Shown here in pieces: positions 8,296 through 60,202 of a stretch of DNA of 64,000 nt; position 1 is the stretch's first letter, and every line of letters starts with the position of its first letter. Origin of the DNA: Methanosphaerula palustris E1-9c (lineage in GTDB: Archaea > Halobacteriota > Methanomicrobia > Methanomicrobiales > Methanospirillaceae); assembly GCF_000021965.1 (NCBI RefSeq), contig NC_011832.1:1798001-1862000 (forward strand). The letters run 5' to 3'. Both the position numbers and the translations under genes were made by a program. Under the pieces are notes generated by a model. That model had not been told where the DNA came from, did no database searches, and was given only the letters and a program-made list of their open reading frames with translations.

Positions 8296-9284
8296 ACCCG
8301 CGGAACCGGGTCACCCATCGGCGGTTCGATAAACCGTTCGCCGCCGATCGAGGTCTCCATGATCACAGACGATCCTTCGACGACCTTCCCGATGATCGCG
8401 GCGTCCTTACCGAGGGGATGGCGCCGGATCGCGGCGAGTATGCTCTCTGCGTCCTCTTCTGGAACTCCCATCACGACCTTTCCTTCGTTGGCGACCTCGA
8501 GCGGGTCAATGCCGAGCAGCGAGCCGGCACTCCTCACACTGGCCCGGATCGGGACCGCAACCTCCTCAAGTCTGACGCCGACGCCAGCTTTTCTGGCCAT
8601 CTCGTTGATGGCCGCCGCAAACCCTCCGCGGGTCGGGTCCTTCATCGCATGGATCGTGCCGGCCGCCATCGCCCCCTTCACCAGTGACCAGATAGGAGCC
8701 ACATCAGAACGAATCTGGTCCCCAAGGTCGAATCCTTCCCGATGGGTCAGGATCGCAAGCCCATGATCCCCGAGCGTACCACTGACGATGATTCGGTCCC
8801 CTGGCATCAACCCGTTGTCGCGGACCACCGTTTCGGCAACACCGATCCCGGCCGTGTTGATGGCAATCCCATCGAGCGCCCCCTTCTCGACGACCTTGGT
8901 ATCTCCGGTAACCAGCGAGGCACCGGCCTCGCCGAGTGCGGTATTCATCGACTGCATGATCTGCTCGAGATCCCCGACATCGAACCCCTCCTCAAGGATC
9001 AGCCCGCAGGAGAGGGCGATCGGACGACCGCCCATCATGGCCAGATCGTTGATCGTCCCAGATACCGCGATCCTTCCAATGTCCCCGCCCGGGAAGAAGA
9101 TCGGATGGACCACATGCGAATCTGTGGTGAAGACGATATTGGTCCCCCCGATCGGGATGACCGCACCGTCATCGAGTGACTCAAGACCGATACCTCCGGC
9201 ATTATTGTGGGTGACGCAGGAGAGCACCTTCAACAGTTCTCCCATCACCTCCCCGCCAGCGCCATGCATCATCTGTACTTTCAT
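8289..9284 (-). CDS. hypE: Hydrogenase maturation protein HypE (carbamoyl dehydratase)
   Basis: HypE receives a carbamoyl group from HypF on its C-terminal cysteine. It dehydrates it with ATP to a thiocyanate that becomes the CN ligands of [NiFe] hydrogenases. The 331-residue protein has the AIR-synthase fold: N-terminal HGAGGEVMGELL, the DDGAVIPIG nucleotide segment, and FTTDSHVVHP. It ends exactly in PVPRVC, matching the PRIC-type tail that carries the modified cysteine. It overlaps the hypA stop by 4 bases and the pyrC start by 7. Seeing HypE in a methanogen with several NiFe hydrogenases is expected. Confidence 0.97.
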   Translation of the reverse strand: MKVQMMHGAGGEVMGELLKVLSCVTHNNAGGIGLESLDDGAVIPIGGTNIVFTTDSHVVHPIFFPGGDIGRIAVSGTINDLAMMGGRPIALSCGLILEEGFDVGDLEQIMQSMNTALGEAGASLVTGDTKVVEKGALDGIAINTAGIGVAETVVRDNGLMPGDRIIVSGTLGDHGLAILTHREGFDLGDQIRSDVAPIWSLVKGAMAAGTIHAMKDPTRGGFAAAINEMARKAGVGVRLEEVAVPIRASVRSAGSLLGIDPLEVANEGKVVMGVPEEDAESILAAIRRHPLGKDAAIIGKVVEGSSVIMETSIGGERFIEPPMGDPVPRVC

Positions 9285-9625
9285 GATTCGTTCACTTCGA
9301 TCTCAATATTGCTGACCACGATCTCTTTTCCTTTGACGATCTGCGGAAGTCCGCCACACGACGGACAGACAAATTTATTCTCGCCAGAGTAGTTACCGCA
9401 CGAACAGGTCATCACCGGTTTCACCGTTGTGCAGACCAGGTCTGTTCCGGAGAAGAGCGGATCGTCTTCGATGATCAGTTTGAACAGATAGACCACCTGC
9501 TCCGGGTTCACCATGGCAATCTCTCCGACATCGACGTGGATCGTGGTCACCGAGGTTGCGCTGTTCTCCTGCGCTGCTCGTCGTGCAGTCGCATAGATAT
9601 CATAAGCAATGCTGTATTCGTGCAT
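9281..9625 (-). CDS. hypA: Hydrogenase/urease nickel chaperone HypA
   Basis: HypA delivers nickel to the hydrogenase large subunit. The start is fixed at 9625 because the mature N-terminus must be Met-His: the histidine at position 2 and the N-terminal amine bind nickel. The sequence MHEYSIAYDI from this ATG gives exactly that, and AGAGG precedes it. The longer open frame to 9679 would destroy the motif. The zinc site is visible as TCSCG and CPSCGG (two CxC/CxxC pairs) near residues 75-95. The gene is first in hypA-hypE-pyrC; the ACCATATAGTC stretch near 9690-9700 may be its TATA box. Confidence 0.95.
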   Translation of the reverse strand: MHEYSIAYDIYATARRAAQENSATSVTTIHVDVGEIAMVNPEQVVYLFKLIIEDDPLFSGTDLVCTTVKPVMTCSCGNYSGENKFVCPSCGGLPQIVKGKEIVVSNIEIEVNES

Positions 9626-50350: not shown

Positions 50351-50740
50351 TCACTGACCTGCAGTGATGACCTGATTCAGCGCAATCACCAGATCATTGA
50401 TACTGTAGGGCTTGGGAACGACACCACTGAATCCATATGTCCTGAAATCAGCCATGATCGGATCATTGGAGTACCCACTTGATACGATCGCAGCCACGGT
50501 CGGATCGATCTCCTGCAGGGTAGTGATCGCCTCTTTTCCCCCCATACCTCCGGGGATTGTCAGGTCCATGATCACTGCATCAAACCTTTGATCCGCCAGG
50601 AATGCCTCACGATAAGCAGTGATCGCCTCAGACCCGTCCCGAGCGCAGACCACCTCAAATCCACGACGTTTGAGCATCTGACTCATCACATCGAGAATAC
50701 TCTCCTCGTCATCCATCAGCAGTACCCGGCCAGAACCCAT
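50351..50740 (-). CDS. Single-domain response regulator (receiver)
   Basis: The 129-residue protein is one receiver domain: RVLLMDDEESILD (acidic pair), phospho-acceptor Asp59 in DAVIMDLTIPGGMGG, SSGY (T/S site) and PKPY (conserved lysine). ATG 50740 follows GGAAAGGTC; an upstream extension to 50842 is not receiver-like. It resembles the receivers of hybrid kinases more than archaeal CheY. It could be the output or phosphate relay of the array. It is the last gene after the receiver-kinase and receiver-receptor genes. Confidence 0.9.
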   Translation of the reverse strand: MGSGRVLLMDDEESILDVMSQMLKRRGFEVVCARDGSEAITAYREAFLADQRFDAVIMDLTIPGGMGGKEAITTLQEIDPTVAAIVSSGYSNDPIMADFRTYGFSGVVPKPYSINDLVIALNQVITAGQ

Positions 50741-50891
50741 GACCTTTCCTTCCTGCCTCTTCTCCACCGTACCAGCTCCACCACTTCTGCAAATACATCT
50801 GTGGCTGAAAGATATATGGTGATCGCTCATTCCCCCTTCCATCGAGGAGATCCCAATCCATCTCCTTCACTGATCTTTCAAGAGAGTCTGA

Positions 50892-53147
50892 TCACTTCAG
50901 GGTGAACTGCTGGACAAGACCCTTCAGTTCCACCGCCATCACCTTCATCCGACTTGCTGCGTTGGCGACCTCTTCTGTGGAACTGCTCGACTCCTCCGAG
51001 AGTACTGTCAGTCTGACCATCTGCTCTTCGTCGGCGTGCATCAGTTCATTGACCCGGTCCACGCTTCTGGTCATGTTGTTGGTAGCATTGGCCTGTTCCT
51101 CTGTCGCTTTGGATATATCTGCAATGCCATTGACTGTGTTGCCGACGTCAGCAGTCAGATTGTTCAGCGCACTGATCGCTTTATTCACAATCTCTATACC
51201 ACCGATGACCTCACGGTAGGCATTGTTCATCGCCTCGGCAGTCTTCTCGCTGCTCGTCGTGATCTCGCCGATCACATCCTCGATGCTGGTGGTGGCCTGC
51301 TTGGACTCCCCGGCCAGCGAACGGACCTCGCCGGCAACAACGGCAAACCCACGGCCGTGTTCACCGGCACGGGCCGCCTCAATGGCCGCGTTCAGGGCCA
51401 GCAGGTTGGTCTGGTTCGCAATCTCCGTGATCAGCCTGACGATCTTACTGATCTCACCCAGTTTCTGGTTCAGGTGAGTGATCTGCCGGACCGCCTCGCT
51501 GGAGATGGCCTCCACCTTCTTCATCCGGTCGGTCGCCTCACTTCCCAGGGCAGCTGCTTCATTACCTTCCTTCATCACCTGCAATGAGAGGCCCCGCACC
51601 TCGCTGGAGGTGCTGGCGATCTCCTCGATTGAAGAACTGAGGTCCGAAACCTCCCCGGTCACACGATCGAGCTGGTCACGCTGGGTCTTTACACCATCAG
51701 CAGTACGCTGTGCCGTGCTGGCCACCTGCCGGGTCGATTGGGCCAGTTCTTCAGCACCTCTCCCCACATCGATCACCACCTCTTCGAGGCTCACAGCCTG
51801 TTTGGAGATCTGCTCCATCGTCTGTCGTAACTGTGAGATCGTCTCGTTCTGATCAGCCTTCACCTGCCCCAGCGGATCACCGGGATAGGTCTTTGCAGGG
51901 AGGGTGAGGTTTCCACGAGCCACAGCCGCAAGACTCTCAGCCAGTTCACCGACGCTCTGATTTAACTGCTTGTCACGTTCCAGCTTTTCGGTAATATCGC
52001 TGTACACCGACATGATATTGACGATCCTCTCCTCCTTGTCCAGCAGCGGGATGGTGTGTTGCTCAAGGTTATGAACCCCCGAAGGGAATTTGACGGTCAC
52101 ATGACCGGTCACACCCATCTTTGTCTGCAGCGCTTCACGGAGGCCGTGTCCGCTCTTTTCGAGGATCTTGAACGATTTGGCGCTCATGGATTTGAGTTGA
52201 TCAGCAGAGAGACCACTCATCTTCAAGTATGCCCGATTGGCTGATGTGATGTTTAAGTCAAGGTCCATCAACAGGATCGGGAGCGGATTCTGTTCGATCA
52301 TGGTGAAGGTATGCTGCTGAAGCTCGGCTATCTCCTCCATCTGCTTATACATCGCGCGTTCGTTCTTCTTCCGCTCGGTTGAATCACGAATGATCGCAAG
52401 GACAGCCCGATCCTTACTGAATACCACCTGGGAAAGCCTGACATCGGTATCAAAGAGAGAGCCGTCAGACCGTTTGAAGATCCACTCGGTCGCCTGAGCA
52501 TCGCCGGCTTTTGCGTTCAGGAGCATCCGGCTGAACTCTGCCGGAGTGTTCCCCCCCTCCGGTGTGGAGGGACCAAAGAGTGTACTGATAGCAACCCCAA
52601 GCAACTGCTCCTTCGTCGGATACAGGAACAGGTCGGGCGTTCCACTGTTCATTTCAACGATCCGTTCATCCCGAATCAGCATGATCGCGTCATAAGCAGC
52701 GTCGATCATTGCCTGAAATTTCTTCTCTTCCTCCAGATGCTGTTCATCGTCACGGCGGTGCTGGAGACGGACAGCCGCCTCAGACAGTTCACGTTCAATA
52801 GCAGGGACCAGTCGGGCATACCGCCCCTTGGTGATGAAGTCCTGTGCTCCAGCCTTCATCACCCCAACAGCAGTGTCCTCGTCGATCACCCCAGAGACCA
52901 TGATGAACGGGAGATCAGGATCAATCTTCCGGGTCAGGTTGAGGGCTGACAGACCATTGAATCCTGGCATGGCATAGTCGGATATTACCAGGTCCCATTG
53001 TTTATTCCGGAGCGCATCCTCCATCGCGACAGCGGTGTCGACCCGCACCCACTCAACATCATAACCACCCTTCTTCAGTTCATAGACGAGGAGTCCTGCA
53101 TCGTCCTCAGAGTCTTCACCGATCAGTGCACGTACATTCTGCGTCAT
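50892..53147 (-). CDS. Receiver-PAS-PAS-HAMP-MCP soluble chemoreceptor
   Basis: The 751-residue protein joins a receiver domain (1-125; LIGEDSEDD, Asp57 in [17 protein letters not shown]) to two PAS domains (about 145-270 and 285-400). A HAMP-like unit ([14 protein letters not shown]) and a complete MCP signalling hairpin (about 480-751) follow; its tip has [19 protein letters not shown]. No membrane segment is present. The receiver would let a histidine kinase control the receptor. The gene starts 7 bases after the stop of a receiver-kinase gene, with GGTGAGG as ribosome site. Confidence 0.93.
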
Positions 53148-53154
53148 AACAACC

Positions 53155-54315
53155 TCACCTTAAAATTTTGTTCATATCCGGGGAATTCACGGATGATTTC
53201 TGTTCATCCTCAACAGGGGGGACTGACTGTTTCACCGGAAGGGTGAACCTGAAGACTGCGCCTCCAAGAGGCTGGCCCTCCGCCCAGATCACCCCGCCAT
53301 GACGATGAACGATCCGTTGTACCGTGGCGAGGCCGATCCCGGTTCCGGGGAACTCAGAGATCGGATGGAGCCGATGGAATGGAGCGAACAGGTGTTCGGC
53401 TTGCTCCATATCAAAGCCGGCCCCATTATCCCTGACACCAATGACCTGCTCGCCACCCTGCTCCTCACTGAAGATCTCGATCTCCGCATCGACAGTCTTT
53501 CCAGTATATTTCCATGCGTTCTCGATCAGATTCCAGCAGACACTCTGGAGCAGTGAACGATCCGCCGTGGCCATGATCCCCGGTTCGACCCGCACCCGGA
53601 CCTTCCGTCCCGGATGGGTATGCGTCAGCTCTTCAAGGATCTCGGATGCCATCCTGCTCACATCGATGGATTCATAATGGAGGGTAGTCCTGCTCAGCCG
53701 GGAAAGGAAGAGAAGTTCGATGATCAGGTCATCCATCTTCTTTGCAGCTGCCTGGATCCGGGACAGATACCCCTTTTCATCCTCCCCGAGTTTTTCATCA
53801 CAGAGGTCGAGGAGGATCGAAGTGTAGCCGTCGATGGTCCTGAGCGGCGCCCTGAGATCATGAGAGACCGAGTAACTGAACGCCTCCAGTTCCCTGTTTG
53901 TTGCCGCGAGTTGTGCCTGTTGGGACTTCAACCGCTGCTCCACCCTGTGCCTGGAGAGAACCAGCTGGATCGAGGAATGAAGATCCCGTTCGCCGAACGG
54001 CTTGATCAGGTAACCATACGCTCCGGTCTCCACAGCCCGTGCAATCGTATCATCATCTGCATAGGCAGTCAGATAGATCACCGGAAGGTCATACCGCTCA
54101 TGGATGATCTGTGCTGCCTGGATACCATCCATCCTACCCTGCAGGTGAACATCCATCAAGATGAGATCTGGTACCCGTTTCTCAACCGCAGCGATTGCAT
54201 CATCTCCAGTAGCCACTATCCCGGTGACATTAAAATGAAGGCTCTTCAACCTTTTTTCAATAGACAGGGCGACAATCGCCTCATCTTCCACAATCAGTAC
54301 CGACTCAAATGTCAT
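53155..54315 (-). CDS. Receiver-histidine kinase
   Basis: The 386-residue soluble protein has an N-terminal receiver (VLIVEDEA, Asp55 in [23 protein letters not shown]). A HisKA domain has phospho-acceptor His152 in [16 protein letters not shown], and a HATPase domain has [21 protein letters not shown] and [18 protein letters not shown]. It is the phytochrome-type kinase core common in methanogens. As first gene of an operon with a receiver-receptor and a lone receiver, it is the likely phosphate donor to both. Confidence 0.92.
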
Positions 54316-54923: not shown

Positions 54924-55463
54924 CTAAAGGGTATGATGGATCGAACTGAGAAGGTACCTGATATCGATCCAGATGATCAGTTCTGTGATCTCCTTCTCCT
55001 TTATTTTAGTCTTCTTTTTGATGATCCCAATGATGGTGGTGTCCTCAGTCGTGGTCACCCGGGTCTTGTCGACCTGGGTAAGCGAGAACGTCGAGACCGA
55101 CGAGACATCATCGACCATGATACCTACCTTTGACTTGGTGATCCGGTCATCAAGCACGATGATCCTGCACTCTTCGTCCCGGACTTCGATGTCGGCCGGA
55201 ATGTTCATCTGCTGTTTCAGATCGATGATCGTGGTGATCTCACCACGAAGGTCGATGATCCCTTTGATATAGGAAGGAGTGTTGGGGAGTTTTGTGATAT
55301 TGGTATACTCCACCACCTCCCGCACATCGAAGAGATCGATGGCGAAGTGCTCTTTTCCGAGGAGAAACTCGACCACCTGAACGTCACCTGATAGTGCGCC
55401 CGATTTATCTCTTGCCGTTTGCGGCGAGAGGATGTTCCCGGGTTCTGCTGAAGGTTCTGTCAT
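54924..55463 (-). CDS. cheW: Chemotaxis coupling protein CheW
   Basis: The 179-residue protein is a CheW domain after a 28-residue polar N-terminus: VVEFLLGKEHFAIDLFDVREVVE, SYIKGIIDLRGEITTIIDLK and VGIMVDDVSSV. CheW links receptors to a CheA kinase in the array. Its ATG lies 13 bases after the stop of the poly-HAMP receptor, with GAGG 8 bases upstream, so the two are co-expressed. No CheA is encoded in the window, so the partner kinase must be elsewhere or of another type. Confidence 0.94.
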   Translation of the reverse strand: MTEPSAEPGNILSPQTARDKSGALSGDVQVVEFLLGKEHFAIDLFDVREVVEYTNITKLPNTPSYIKGIIDLRGEITTIIDLKQQMNIPADIEVRDEECRIIVLDDRITKSKVGIMVDDVSSVSTFSLTQVDKTRVTTTEDTTIIGIIKKKTKIKEKEITELIIWIDIRYLLSSIHHTL

Positions 55464-55476
55464 CTGTACACCCTCG

Positions 55477-58290
55477 TCATACCGTGAACTTGCTCATCTC
55501 TCTGGCGACGGTATCAGCGATCATATTCACATTCTCGACGATCTTCCGGACCTCGTCGATCGCAGCCGAGGTCTCTTCACTCGCTGCGGCTGCATCGCCG
55601 GCTTCACTGGCAGTGCCTTCAACCAGACTGCCGACTTCGTGAACACTGGCCGTAATCTCCTCGACGGTGGCTGCCTGCTCTTCAGAGGCGCTCGCGACCT
55701 CTTCGACCGAGCGGGTGATCTTCTCGACGTCTGCCACGATTCTATTGAAGACGTTCAGGGTCTCAGAGAGCACTGCAGATCCCTCGCGGACCTCCTTTGA
55801 TGCGGATGCCGTGGCCAAAGCCGCCTTTTCAGACTTGGTCTTGAGCCCCCCGATCATCTCTGCGATCGACTCTGCAGAGGTCCTCGACTCCTGAGCCAGG
55901 GACTTCACCTCGGCTGCAACCACGGCAAACCCACGGCCGGCATCGCCGGCCCGGGCCGCCTCGATGGCCGCGTTCAGAGCGAGCAGGTTGGTCTGGCTGG
56001 CCAAGTCCGAGATCAGACCGACGATCTTTCCAATCTTGTCCATCTCAGCCTTGATTTCGACGATGATCTGGTCCACTTCTGTGGTGGACCGGGTGATCCC
56101 GACCATCCCCTGCTCGGCCTTCCGTGCGAGTTCTGCTCCGTCCTTGGAGAGCGTGTTCGCACCGTTGGCGAGGGTGGCCACGGACTCGGTACTGGCGGTC
56201 ACCTCCTCGACGGCTGCAGAGAGATCCTCCATCGCCTTGAGCACCTGCTCGAGGCCCTGGTTCCCCTTCTCAGCGTTGGAACTGACCTGGCCGGCGTTGT
56301 CGGCGACCTGCTGTGCCCCAGAGACCACCTCCTCAACGCTGGCCGCTGCCTCCTCAGCCGAAGCGGCAAGGTCGGTCACCTGGATATTGATCGCACCGAC
56401 GGCGTTCGTCACCGCGATACCGATACTATCCAGAGAATCCTCAAACCTGACAAAGTCTCCTGCAACCCCCAGACTCCGATCAAACCGGGCTGTGAAGTTA
56501 TACTGGGAGAACTCGTGCGCGACCCGCAGCGCTTCGTTGACCGGCGCAATCACGGCATCGAGTGTCTTGTTGACCCCCTCGATGATCTTCCGGAAGTCGC
56601 CCTGGTGTCTGGTTGCGTCCGCCCGGGTCGCGAGCTTCCCTTCAACTGCTGCCACCGAGAGCATCCCCGCATCCGCGACGAGTGCATTGAGGTTGTCGAT
56701 ACAGTTGTTGATGCTCCTCTGCATCGCGACGATGTCGCCGTTCACCTTGTTGGTTCTCTTCGCAGGAATGTCACCATTACCGATTTTATTATAATAATCT
56801 ATGGCTACATTCAATGGAGCGATGATGGCATCAAGCATCGCATTGACACCCTCCATCATCTTTTTGTTACCGCCCTGGAACTTGGAAGGATCGGCGCGTG
56901 TTGTGAGTTTACCCCCAATTGCAGCCTCTGTCAGCATATCGAGTTCAGTATTCCGCATCACAATCACATCGATCTGCTGATTCAGGTTATGCATCAGAAC
57001 ATTGAAGTCACCCTGATAATCCGCTGTGATCTTTTCAGGTGCGATCCCTGCGCTGATCTTGGCAACAAAATCGGCAGCGATATTCAATGGTCCGATGACC
57101 GCATCGAGGGTCTGATTGAATCCCTCGATGATCTTCCCGTAGTCGCCCTTATGTTTTGTTGCGTCCGCCCTTATCGAGAGTTTGCCTTCAACGGCCGCTT
57201 CAGCAAGCATCCCCGCATCGTTGATGAGGCCATTGATCGCCAGCTGCGCCTCCCGCAGGTTCTCATTCATCTTCACAAAATCATCATGCTCTGCCTGGGT
57301 GAATTTATCAGCCGGCTTGACGGCCAGATTGAAGTTGAGGTTTCCTTCTGCAAGCAGAGTGAGATTGGTGGCCATCCGGTCCACCTCGGCCTTGATGAAG
57401 TCACGGACCGCAATGACCGAAGTGAGATCCTCCACGACTTCAACATATCCAATCTGGTTACCATCCTGGTCGCGAAGGGACGAGGTGGTCTGTTTGCCAT
57501 TCATATCGCCCCAGACGAAGTAACTCTCGGTGACCCCCTTGTGCAGCTGCCGGATCCCACACCCATCGGTGTTGCATATCGTCGCATTGGCAGTGGAGCA
57601 GGGCAGCCCCATAGAGGAGTCGCGGTTTTTAATTGTCCCCTGCTGGATCAACGTCTTCTCAAAGGCCGCATTCATCAGCGTCCACTTCATATCCATATCA
57701 GTGACATGGATCGGGAACGGCACCGCGTCGATGATCGCCTTGTACCAGTTGTTCTTCGCCACAAAGATGTCGAGGAGGTTGTTGATCCCATCGGCCATCT
57801 TCTTGAAGTCACCGGTATGAAAGGCCGGGTCCGTTCGTGCTGAAAAGTCCCCTTTTTCCACCTTCTTCGTGACGTTGACAATATCGGCGACTGCCTTCTT
57901 CTGTCCGGTCACTTCAGGGAAGTACTCGATTGCACCGATCACCTTTCCAGAACTGTCAGTCAGGGGTGCACCGGTCACATTGATGACCACATCCCCCATG
58001 GTGATCTCAACACTATAATTGATCCCCTTCTCCATCGCAATCCTGCACGGACACTCAGGGGTGTTGCAGTTTGGAGAGCGATAGAGGTCAGAGCACTTCT
58101 TGCCGATGATATCGTCCCGCTTTTTTCCTAGAAGCGTAGCTGCAGCCTCGTTCGTATAAAGAATCCGGTAATCTGTACCGATCACATGCATCGGAACGGG
58201 TATTCGGTCAAGCCCCTGAGTGAGGAGCGCCATCGTAGTTGGATCAGGTCCCAACGATCCAGATGAATTGTCCACGCTTTGCGGAGACAT
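55477..58290 (-). CDS. Soluble poly-HAMP chemoreceptor with two cysteine-rich PAS domains
   Basis: The 937-residue protein has PAS 1 (about 20-125) with [20 protein letters not shown], a HAMP-like unit, and PAS 2 (about 180-285) with [19 protein letters not shown]. At least four HAMP-like units follow (about 290-620), three of which share EGKLxxRADAT and (I/M)(I/M)EGxNxxLDAVI. The MCP hairpin (about 640-937) has tip sequence [19 protein letters not shown]. No membrane segment is seen. The paired cysteine clusters suggest a metal, haem or redox sensor. ATG 58290 is chosen because GGAG lies 8 bases upstream; a GTG three codons earlier overlaps that site. Confidence 0.92.
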
Positions 58291-58473
58291 GTCAGGCACT
58301 CCTGCTGAAAAAATCTAACAGCATTCCAGATCTTCCTGCATACCACATATTCAAACCCGGAACGACCTCGCCGATCCAGGACTCCCTCACTCCTCTGAAG
58401 ATTCTCATGATATTCCCTACTGAGTGCACATCTGCTATGCAGATCCGCATCATCTATCCAGTAGGAGGGTCTT

Positions 58474-58484
58474 GTATATAAATT
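58474..58484. promoter_or_regulatory. Shared TATA-like element between the divergent receptor and winged-helix genes
   Basis: TTGTATATAAATT reads as a TATA box on both strands. It lies about 115 bases before the ATG at 58595 and about 190 before the receptor ATG at 58290. TTGCA and TGCAA arms (58495-58520) follow on the plus side. Confidence 0.45.
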
Positions 58485-58594
58485 AATTCTGTCGCATTGC
58501 AAATATGCTAATCACTATGCAAGGCATAAATACCCGGAGCAGACTATGTTTAAGATATATTATAACCCGGAGGTTAACAGGACGTGAAGAAGGT

Positions 58595-60202
58595 ATGATC
58601 TCGGTAAAACAGAACCTGGCATCCATCAAGGAAGTCCTGAAGAAGAACCCGCGGGGACTTTCCATAACTGATATCTCACGGGAACTGAGCCTGAACAGGA
58701 ATTCCGTGGCAAAATATGTCAATATGTTGATGGTCTCAGGCGACATTGAAATGAGATCCTTCGCTGCGGCGAAGGTATATTTTCTATCAGATCGGGTACC
58801 GATCTCAACGATGCTCGATTACGCATCAGATATGATCGTCGTGCTCAACAGTGAACTGAAGATCCTGCAGGCAAACGACAACTTTCTGACCTTCACTGGA
58901 AAGAAGCCGCAACAACTGCAAGGTCGCTCCCTCAGTTCCCTCAATCTGACCATTCTCAAGGAGACACCATTGCTCAACTGGATCGTCAATGCTCTGCATG
59001 GAATGTCATACAGCGATGAGATCGAATGGAAGATTGACGAACGATCCATCTCATTTCAGATTAAACTGATCCCAACGGTCTTTGAGAATGGCGGCGCAGG
59101 GGTGACTCTGGTCTTCGAGGACATCACCGAGAAGAAAGAGGCGGTGGCGGCTCTAAAGCAGAGTGAAGCACGCTATCGGGCCATCGTCGAGGAGCAGACA
59201 GATCTGATCTGCAGGTTTCTTCCAGACGGCACGCTGACATTTGCAAATAATGCCTACTGCACCTTCTTCAATATGGCAAAAGAGGAATTGATCGGGCATT
59301 CCTTCAAACCGATAATTCAGAACAGCGAGCAGAGGAGATTGAACCAGTTCGTCGATGACATCACACAGGAATGTCCGGTGTTGACACTTGATGAACAGGT
59401 GATCCGTCCAGATGGTGAGGAGGTTTGGCTTCAGTGGACCAATCGGGCGTTATTCGATGATTCAGGGAACATGGTCGAGTACCAGGCCGTCGGAAGGGAG
59501 ATCACAGAACTGAAACATACCGAAGAACAGCTCAAGCAGGCCCTGAAAGAGAAGGAAGATCTGATAGAATCGGTGGGAAACCGGACACGAGGAATGTTTC
59601 AACTTATCCAGAGCCTCTTCGATCTTCAGAAACAGTACTGTACCATTGCTACCGATCTCGGAATCATCAGAGAATCCCAGAACAGAATCGCCGCCCTAGC
59701 CCTGATCCATGAAGTGCTTGAGGAGTCTGCCGATCCCGAGCATATCCCGATCAGAGACTATACACAACGACTGGTCGAACTGATCTTCTCCACATATATT
59801 CACGATACAGAACAGGTGACAGTCGATCAGAAGATCGAAGATGGACTGATCCAGACCGATATTGCCGTTCCCTACGGTCTGATCCTCACCGAACTGCTGA
59901 CCAATTCATTTCTCTGGGGATTCCCGGAGGGAAGGCGAGGAACCATGACGATCGAGGTGGCCTGTCAGGACAGGTCGACCATCCTGACCATCAGCGACGA
60001 TGGCGTGGGCATCCCAGACGATCTCGATCCTGCCAGGTCGGATACGTTCGGACTCGACCTGGTATATGCCCTGACTAGACAACTGGGTGGAACCCTTGAT
60101 CTACAGAGGAAGAACGGTACCTCATTCAGGATCACCATCCCAGACCCGGTCAGGAATCACGACCAGAATATCCCTCCCCAGATCTCAATCAGATCATTTT
60201 AA
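58595..60202 (+). CDS. Winged-helix-PAS-PAS-kinase-like protein with missing acceptor histidine
   Basis: The 535-residue protein begins with a winged helix-turn-helix (LASIKEVLKKNPRGLSITDISRELSLNRNSVAKYV, in part). Two PAS domains follow (about 80-185 and 200-310), then a HisKA_2/HWE-type dimerisation region and a HATPase domain (LTELLTNSFLWGF, ISDDGVGIPDD, GLDLVYALTRQLGG). In the dimerisation region, EIHHRVKNN-type sequence is replaced by ESVGNRTRGM, so the usual phospho-acceptor histidine is absent. It may be a ligand- and ATP-controlled DNA-binding protein. It is divergent from the receptor-cheW operon. The frame is open to an ATG at 58505. Confidence 0.85.
   Translation: MISVKQNLASIKEVLKKNPRGLSITDISRELSLNRNSVAKYVNMLMVSGDIEMRSFAAAKVYFLSDRVPISTMLDYASDMIVVLNSELKILQANDNFLTFTGKKPQQLQGRSLSSLNLTILKETPLLNWIVNALHGMSYSDEIEWKIDERSISFQIKLIPTVFENGGAGVTLVFEDITEKKEAVAALKQSEARYRAIVEEQTDLICRFLPDGTLTFANNAYCTFFNMAKEELIGHSFKPIIQNSEQRRLNQFVDDITQECPVLTLDEQVIRPDGEEVWLQWTNRALFDDSGNMVEYQAVGREITELKHTEEQLKQALKEKEDLIESVGNRTRGMFQLIQSLFDLQKQYCTIATDLGIIRESQNRIAALALIHEVLEESADPEHIPIRDYTQRLVELIFSTYIHDTEQVTVDQKIEDGLIQTDIAVPYGLILTELLTNSFLWGFPEGRRGTMTIEVACQDRSTILTISDDGVGIPDDLDPARSDTFGLDLVYALTRQLGGTLDLQRKNGTSFRITIPDPVRNHDQNIPPQISIRSF

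Follow-up and report, generated by a model that had tools for sequence, protein, structure and literature searches.

NifL of Azotobacter is built of tandem PAS domains and a kinase-like core. It controls transcription and acts on a separate DNA-binding protein, NifA. In the protein described here, psHK, the DNA-binding domain belongs to the same chain as the PAS domains and the core.

DivL of Caulobacter has been demonstrated to recognize whether a single-domain receiver is phosphorylated (PMC4211667). As described there, it combines PAS input with a histidine kinase core in which the acceptor histidine is replaced, by tyrosine in DivL itself; psHK shares this organization, and tyrosine takes the acceptor position in 8 of the 40 members of its family. 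DivL, however, acts on the kinase CckA, and the available sections of that paper mention no DNA-binding domain, whereas psHK carries a fused winged helix-turn-helix (wHTH). The likeness is one of mechanism only: receiver reading by psHK is proposed here from gene linkage, and orthology is not claimed. The nearest solved core to that of psHK is found in EL346, among the HWE/HisKA_2 kinases, and EL346 has its acceptor histidine. A subgroup of EL346-like LOV kinases reportedly misses it, and the accessible part of their description mentions no DNA-binding domain (PMC10359499).

Methanogens are also known to have kinase-like proteins without an H box. These are RdmS and MsmS (MA_type 2) of Methanosarcina acetivorans, which differ from psHK in that the H-box region is wholly missing and, in the sections available, no wHTH is mentioned (PMC11784639). 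RdmS is described as binding and hydrolysing ATP without autokinase activity, and REC-only proteins have been proposed to act as a hub (PMC11784639). The same paper calls the path from REC-only signals to the transcription machinery of archaea incompletely understood. REC-only proteins are given as about 40% of archaeal response regulators, and response regulators with an HTH as rare (PMC5847659). LtrR and FilR1, described in the same source, resemble the psHK family in being an archaeal two-component output to DNA. They have REC and HTH in one chain, whereas in the psHK family the receiver and the DNA-binding protein are separate and would be linked by a dead kinase. The 'nonenzymatic HK-like proteins' of that source keep the histidine and lack the HATPase, which is the opposite of psHK.

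The locus analysed here contains a predicted DNA-binding pseudo histidine kinase. From its sequence and gene neighbourhood we consider the chances about even that psHK is the transcriptional output of a two-component system, reading the phosphorylated receiver (REC~P) and controlling a divergent operon. Pseudo histidine kinases are already known as a kind; the output arrangement is new. No wHTH-fused dead HisKA_2 kinase was found in the open-licence PMC literature, which is weak evidence of absence.

Domain structure of psHK

The window, by which we mean the whole 64,000-nucleotide stretch of Methanosphaerula palustris E1-9c DNA, belongs to a genome of 2,922,917 bases in one contig. The psHK gene (58595-60202, forward strand) opens with MISVKQNL at 58595, ends with the stop codon at 60200-60202 and encodes 535 residues, for which the ORF list, Pfam and an AlphaFold model give the order wHTH-PAS-PAS-pseudoHisKA_2-HATPase. 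The wHTH comprises residues about 8-66 (58616-58792) and is followed by PAS domain 1, residues about 67-178 (58793-59128), and PAS domain 2, residues about 188-305 (59156-59509), the latter without a counterpart in the aligned one-PAS members. The pseudo HisKA_2 or DHp region takes residues 319-401 (59549-59797) and the HATPase_c domain residues about 426-518 (59870-60148).

In Pfam the HisKA_2 region scores 48.3 bits (cut-off 22.3), HATPase_c 40.9 bits (cut-off 26.4), and two PAS stretches exceed their cut-off. The window wHTH stays slightly under the cut-off, with 19.8 against 21.9 for HTH_24 and 18.9 against 22 for HTH_IclR; that of three relatives exceeds the HTH_IclR cut-off of 22 (L163, 23.5; L167, 34.4; L281, 30.5 bits), and the model of psHK has three N-terminal helices. 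A search of the chain for Response_reg (REC) gave no match at E 1.

The model was built from a 21-row alignment and has a pLDDT of 79.8 and a pTM of 0.45, at which the arrangement of the domains is unreliable; a single-sequence model (pLDDT 36.8) was useless. The DHp helices, 304-348 and 352-377, and the CA fold are present. The top structural match is the histidine kinase domain of EL346 (Z 21.6, 180 residues, 3.7 A), and DivL (4q20) is third (Z 17.1, 155 residues, 4.4 A). Foldseek matches include the NifL-NifA complex (9qq6).

The H box of psHK reads SVGNRTRGM and pairs with EVQHRVKNH of EL346 (4r3a). Against EL346 and the ordinary relatives, Asn329 (codon AAC, 59579-59581) fills the column of the phosphoacceptor histidine, and Gly328 stands one position earlier. 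The ATP-site boxes are all present: ELLTNSF (N), DDGVGI (G1) and TFGLDLV (G2). psHK has the HisKA_2 and HATPase_c homology of a HisKA_2 sensor kinase and is without the acceptor histidine in its H box. As in a one-component regulator, a sensor and a DNA-binding domain are in a single chain; as in DivL, a histidine kinase fold with a replaced acceptor is combined with PAS input. The initial annotation had described a DNA-binding PAS protein with a kinase-like core, a lost acceptor histidine and intact HATPase motifs, and Pfam, the relatives, the model and the alignment with EL346 agree with it in each respect.

Distribution of the family and the acceptor position

A first scan of genome contigs with the window protein alone gave no match. 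An initial screen of 150 genomes of the order Methanomicrobiales returned four further full-length two-PAS homologues with 39-43% identity, two of them (G081 and G137) from genus g4 in the same family as the window and two (G080 and G120) from another family; the acceptor residues are Y, Y, L and Q. Most of the other strong matches are wHTH-PAS-PAS proteins that lack a kinase core of this kind. Next, 232 genomes of the order were searched at a threshold of E 1e-90 with a nine-protein profile, in which seven entries have the shorter one-PAS form, and the fusion of a wHTH to a dead kinase was found in 42 genomes. All 42 loci were examined. The gene is in one frame in 40 genomes, which spread over five families, and in two frames in G007 and G135. 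Phylum-wide profile searches covered 392 genomes, drawn evenly and considered for the best 3-4 candidates per genome; of the matches listed, none from outside the order was a near-full-length fusion.

The acceptor column of the 40 one-frame fusions holds Q in 16, L in nine, Y in eight, M in three and N, I, F and H in one each, so that 39 have no histidine there. The control set, consisting of cores from the same regions that have no wHTH in the same frame and score above 100 bits (n=39), has histidine in 36; the remaining three are two split halves of dead kinases and a fragment without the box. Without the score cut, the control acceptor is histidine in 36 of 43. The H box of the dead cores is changed yet regular. 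The position before the acceptor (His-1) is histidine in 36 of 40, the exceptions being the window copy, G081, G137 and G161, and at the third position after it (His+3) 33 of 40 dead cores have R, where 36 of the 43 other cores have K.

The lone acceptor histidine is found in G148 (L271, 5946-7202), a fragmented assembly, where the codon is CAC as compared with TAC in three relatives checked. This copy, whose HATPase match is 42 bits, sits among Tyr and Phe copies in the tree of cores. Its histidine may be a reversion, a retained kinase or a sequence error.

Chance or a frameshift as the cause of the missing histidine is ruled out by the four full-length homologues and then by the 39 of 40 members. 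A pseudogene reading of psHK is rejected on the homologue alignments and the domain-wise conservation.

Near dead-kinase loci in f2 genomes there are also short degenerate HisKA_2-like open reading frames of 214-220 residues, scoring below 100 bits, whose acceptor column holds R or K (L248 12054-12713, L250 12454-13101, L251 11064-11705 and L254 12044-12694).

Receiver and kinase partners

At 37 of 40 loci the dead-kinase gene is followed, at a distance of no more than 400 bp, by a REC-only gene; the latter is convergent in eight of these, all of genus g16. At the window, G081 and G137 no REC-only gene was found within 400 bp downstream of psHK or its homologue. Under a stricter count, requiring a REC score above 50 and enough flank, 36 of 39 dead-kinase genes have such a neighbour and none of 40 other wHTH-PAS genes does; the Fisher P of 2e-19 is too small owing to the relatedness of the loci. 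In the partner receivers the phosphoacceptor Asp is conserved, as are the Thr and the Lys; their acidic pair reads EDA in six f4 copies and EDD or EDN elsewhere. REC-only genes are reported to be common in methanogens, so the neighbourhood is no proof of contact (PMC11784639).

A HisKA_2 kinase that has its histidine is found nearby in 35 of 40 loci. In most of these its gene is divergent from that of the dead kinase, next to it or with MCP-cheW in between. Divergence of the dead-kinase gene from MCP-cheW or from the kinase itself recurs across the family. Within a locus, the dead and live cores are on average 55% identical in DHp helix 1. In two of the 35 loci (L260, 7855-9255; L261, 8071-9471) the kinase is convergent to the pair of dead-kinase and REC genes and keeps HHRVKNN, and its ATP-site motifs are degenerate (N box ELLIYS, G1 SDSGS). 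By these motifs it is perhaps a histidine-bearing partner without an ATP site.

In the window, the receiver closest to the REC-only proteins of the family is part of a REC-HisKA-HATPase hybrid kinase (53155-54315, reverse strand), which matches 38 of the 38 family receivers compared with a median of 94.7 bits. The stand-alone REC at 50354-50866 is far weaker, with 20 of 38 and a median of 31.2 bits. The hybrid kinase stands behind the MCP and cheW genes, and its core is HisKA, not HisKA_2. As judged from these matches, the receiver and the kinase of the window appear to be fused as one chain. Downstream of the hybrid kinase lies a REC-PAS-PAS-MCP protein (50892-53147, reverse strand); a REC-PAS-PAS-HAMP-MCP architecture has been recorded for Methanosphaerula and Methanospirillum (PMC5847659).

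Origin and conservation of the dead core

A tree was built from the 40 dead cores and 35 live ones (one per locus). A single branch, with a support of 97/92 and present in 95% of 200 bootstrap trees, separates the dead cores from the live ones. A single origin of the dead cores is supported by this tree; inner placements are unsure because some branches, including that of the window copy, are long. In a smaller tree of 21 rows, five dead cores could sit apart from the neighbouring kinases, with weak support (59/74). In a tree of the wHTH and PAS1 the family clusters without being a single strict clade (4 changes). Of the 'other' rows that fall within it, three (L282, L168 and L171) are split or short open frames, and the second genes of L062 and L063 are real exceptions. 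These are long wHTH-PAS genes that follow the dead-kinase and REC genes in G080 (L062, 10506-14519) and G120 (L063, 11085-16457).

Conservation is uneven along the protein. Across the five two-PAS proteins, identity to psHK is 63-73% in the wHTH, 37-47% in PAS, 33-39% in HisKA_2 and 32-41% in HATPase. Mean identity over the 35 paired loci is 0.62 (dead) and 0.73 (live) in DHp helix 1, and 0.38 and 0.45 in CA; the excess of helix 1 over CA is similar in dead and live cores, so this measure alone shows no relaxed ATP binding.

A complete set of ATP-site motifs (N-box Asn, DxGxG and G2 Gly) is retained by 33 of 40 members, which suggests that ATP still matters in most of them. The motifs are lost in seven members of three lineages (G081/G137, G161 and four f6 copies). 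Between the closely related G081 and G137, 9 of 93 residues differ in the HATPase, as compared with 2 of 409 over the other domains counted and 0 of 83 in HisKA_2. In the f6 copy L281 the HATPase gives no match at E 0.01, though HisKA_2 scores 77 bits; in this copy, as judged from the domain scores, the DHp helix outlasts the ATP site. The initial annotation suggested that the protein could use ATP binding. The motifs of the window copy and of the 33 members fit this, but seven members have lost them and one f6 copy has no HATPase match, and ATP binding is therefore not the common function of the family.

The divergent promoter region

On the strand opposite to psHK lie a methyl-accepting chemotaxis protein of PAS-HAMP-MCP type (55477-58299), its divergent neighbour, and cheW (54924-55463), and the region between (58300-58594) is a divergent promoter region common to psHK and the MCP operon. 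Divergence from a receptor-cheW operon had been recognized in the initial annotation; the arrangement recurs in several genera, and at all four loci of the full-length homologues an MCP gene with cheW beside it is divergent from the dead-kinase gene. In the window's own genome, which has 12 MCP matches, four of ten wHTH-PAS paralogues (psHK, L005, L009 and the decayed L020) are divergent from MCP-cheW genes. That psHK would control the shared promoter is suggested by this synteny and by candidate sites.

Two candidate operators of the TGC-N3-GCA type, chosen post hoc, are ATCTGC-TAT-GCAGAT (58430-58444) and TATGC-AAG-GCATA (58516-58528). Similar repeats are present upstream of the G081/G137, G080, G120 and G161 genes. 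The motif is over-represented in the four promoters where it was first spotted, the expectation there being the larger of region background and base composition. Over the whole window it occurs 32 times against 12.6 in shuffles, so coding sequence inflates it. As an operator of the family it fails, since 37 other upstream regions of the family give 2 matches (one in G161) where 2.8 are expected. It is a candidate site for loci of the window type only.

A half-site, TGCMTATCA, is found upstream in 13 of 18 f2, 6 of 6 f4, 2 of 4 f1 and 1 of 2 G080/G120 copies. It is absent from the upstream regions of the eight g16 and four f6 copies, and from the window copy too. About 0.14 matches in all are expected from the rest of the regions, but the count is no independent test because the motif was spotted by eye in the same f4 and f2 regions. 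A whole-genome search for the palindrome is nearer to one. Among 232 genomes, three have the 22-bp palindrome of TGCMTATCA (TGCCTATCAATATTGATAGGCA type), once each; two of these copies, in G015 and G045, precede the start of the dead-kinase match by about 155-178 bp.

Proposed mechanism and alternatives

The loci retain a dead HisKA_2 core, fused to a wHTH, alongside a receiver and a kinase that are both live, and the simplest reading of this is that the core became a reader of the receiver. The intact HisKA_2 kinase would phosphorylate the receiver, and REC~P would dock on the dead core via the surface used by a live HisKA_2 core, as DivK~P does on DivL. Docking together with PAS input, and with ATP in most members, would alter the dimer and change the DNA binding of the wHTH, which would act at the shared divergent promoter and control its own gene as well as the MCP-cheW-kinase operon. 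For the window copy, the REC of the hybrid kinase at 53155-54315 would serve as the receiver, and this is the weakest link of the proposal. Generalized to Methanomicrobiales from the gene neighbourhoods, the proposal postulates a module of three parts, a live HisKA_2 kinase, a lone receiver and a wHTH-PAS dead kinase that reads receiver phosphorylation, for which we use the term 'split response regulator' and whose chances we place a little short of even. A dead kinase that binds DNA and has a conserved place next to a lone receiver would offer one concrete, testable route from a REC-only protein to DNA. In DivL a dead kinase reads a receiver and controls another protein; the principle would here be extended so that DNA is controlled directly. 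If true, the 'split response regulator' would account for the way in which some REC-only proteins of archaea act on DNA.

The initial annotation proposed a switch made of one protein. In such a regulator the PAS domains would sense, the dead core would only dimerize and sense ATP, and the wHTH would bind DNA. The wHTH and PAS are present and kept, the ATP motifs are intact in the window copy and in 33 of 40 members, many wHTH-PAS relatives have no such kinase core, and no REC-only gene adjoins the window psHK. A pure one-component regulator is nevertheless unlikely, given a REC-only partner at 37 of 40 loci as opposed to 0 of 40 other wHTH-PAS genes, and given three lineages that lost the ATP motifs while the DHp stayed. 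What stands of that proposal is a DNA-binding PAS protein whose core, by its sequence, is not phosphorylatable; its self-sufficiency is at odds with the REC-only partner and with the histidine-bearing HisKA_2 kinase at 35 of 40 loci. These same nearby kinases, and the 55% identity of dead and live cores in DHp helix 1, would suit a dead core that buffers the flow of phosphate, either by binding the receiver or by forming heterodimers with the intact kinase, with DNA binding secondary. Yet the wHTH is the best-kept part of the full-length homologues (63-73% against 32-41% for HATPase) and there are candidate operators in the shared promoter, which suggests that DNA binding is central; buffering as the main function appears distinctly improbable.

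The core could also be a useless relic on a wHTH-PAS regulator, and both the concentration of changes in the HATPase of G081/G137 and the loss of ATP motifs in f6 copies could be taken for decay. The unchanged HisKA_2 region of the same pair, the intact ATP motifs of the window copy and the 40 one-frame copies over five families, 37 of them with a partner REC, make this very improbable. Or the protein could still be a kinase, another residue (His-1 or a Tyr) being phosphorylated and the phosphate passed to REC. His-1 is kept in 36 of 40 members, as are the ATP motifs in 33, and the acceptor histidine is present in G148, but the box of the window copy, with G and N, is entirely free of histidine, eight different residues occur in the acceptor column, the ATP site is lost in three lineages, and Methanosarcina RdmS, which lacks an H box, is described as binding and hydrolysing ATP with, reportedly, no autokinase (PMC11784639). 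We give a surviving kinase hardly any credence and hold the reading of psHK as a receiver reader that acts on DNA at no more than the even chances given above.

Other genes at related loci

A small open reading frame in the window (58292-58453, reverse strand), of 53 residues or 38 from an inner ATG, ends over the MCP start. By eye, a similar one precedes the MCP gene at L064 (about 9300-9600), and a different one is present in G080/G120. L064 also contains, at 9081-9251 (own genome 1776080-1776250, reverse strand), a decayed wHTH gene with internal stops that is 64% identical to the psHK wHTH. It is divergent from an MCP-cheW pair, and the adjacent cheW is in two overlapping frames. At L116 (1990-2576; own genome 2422992-2423434, reverse strand) cheW is likewise in two frames, beside an MCP gene divergent from a wHTH-PAS gene. 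A different fusion of a DNA-binding domain to a kinase is encoded in G201 (L101, 560-4249), where a wHTH-PASn protein of 1230 residues ends in HisKA-HATPase_c.
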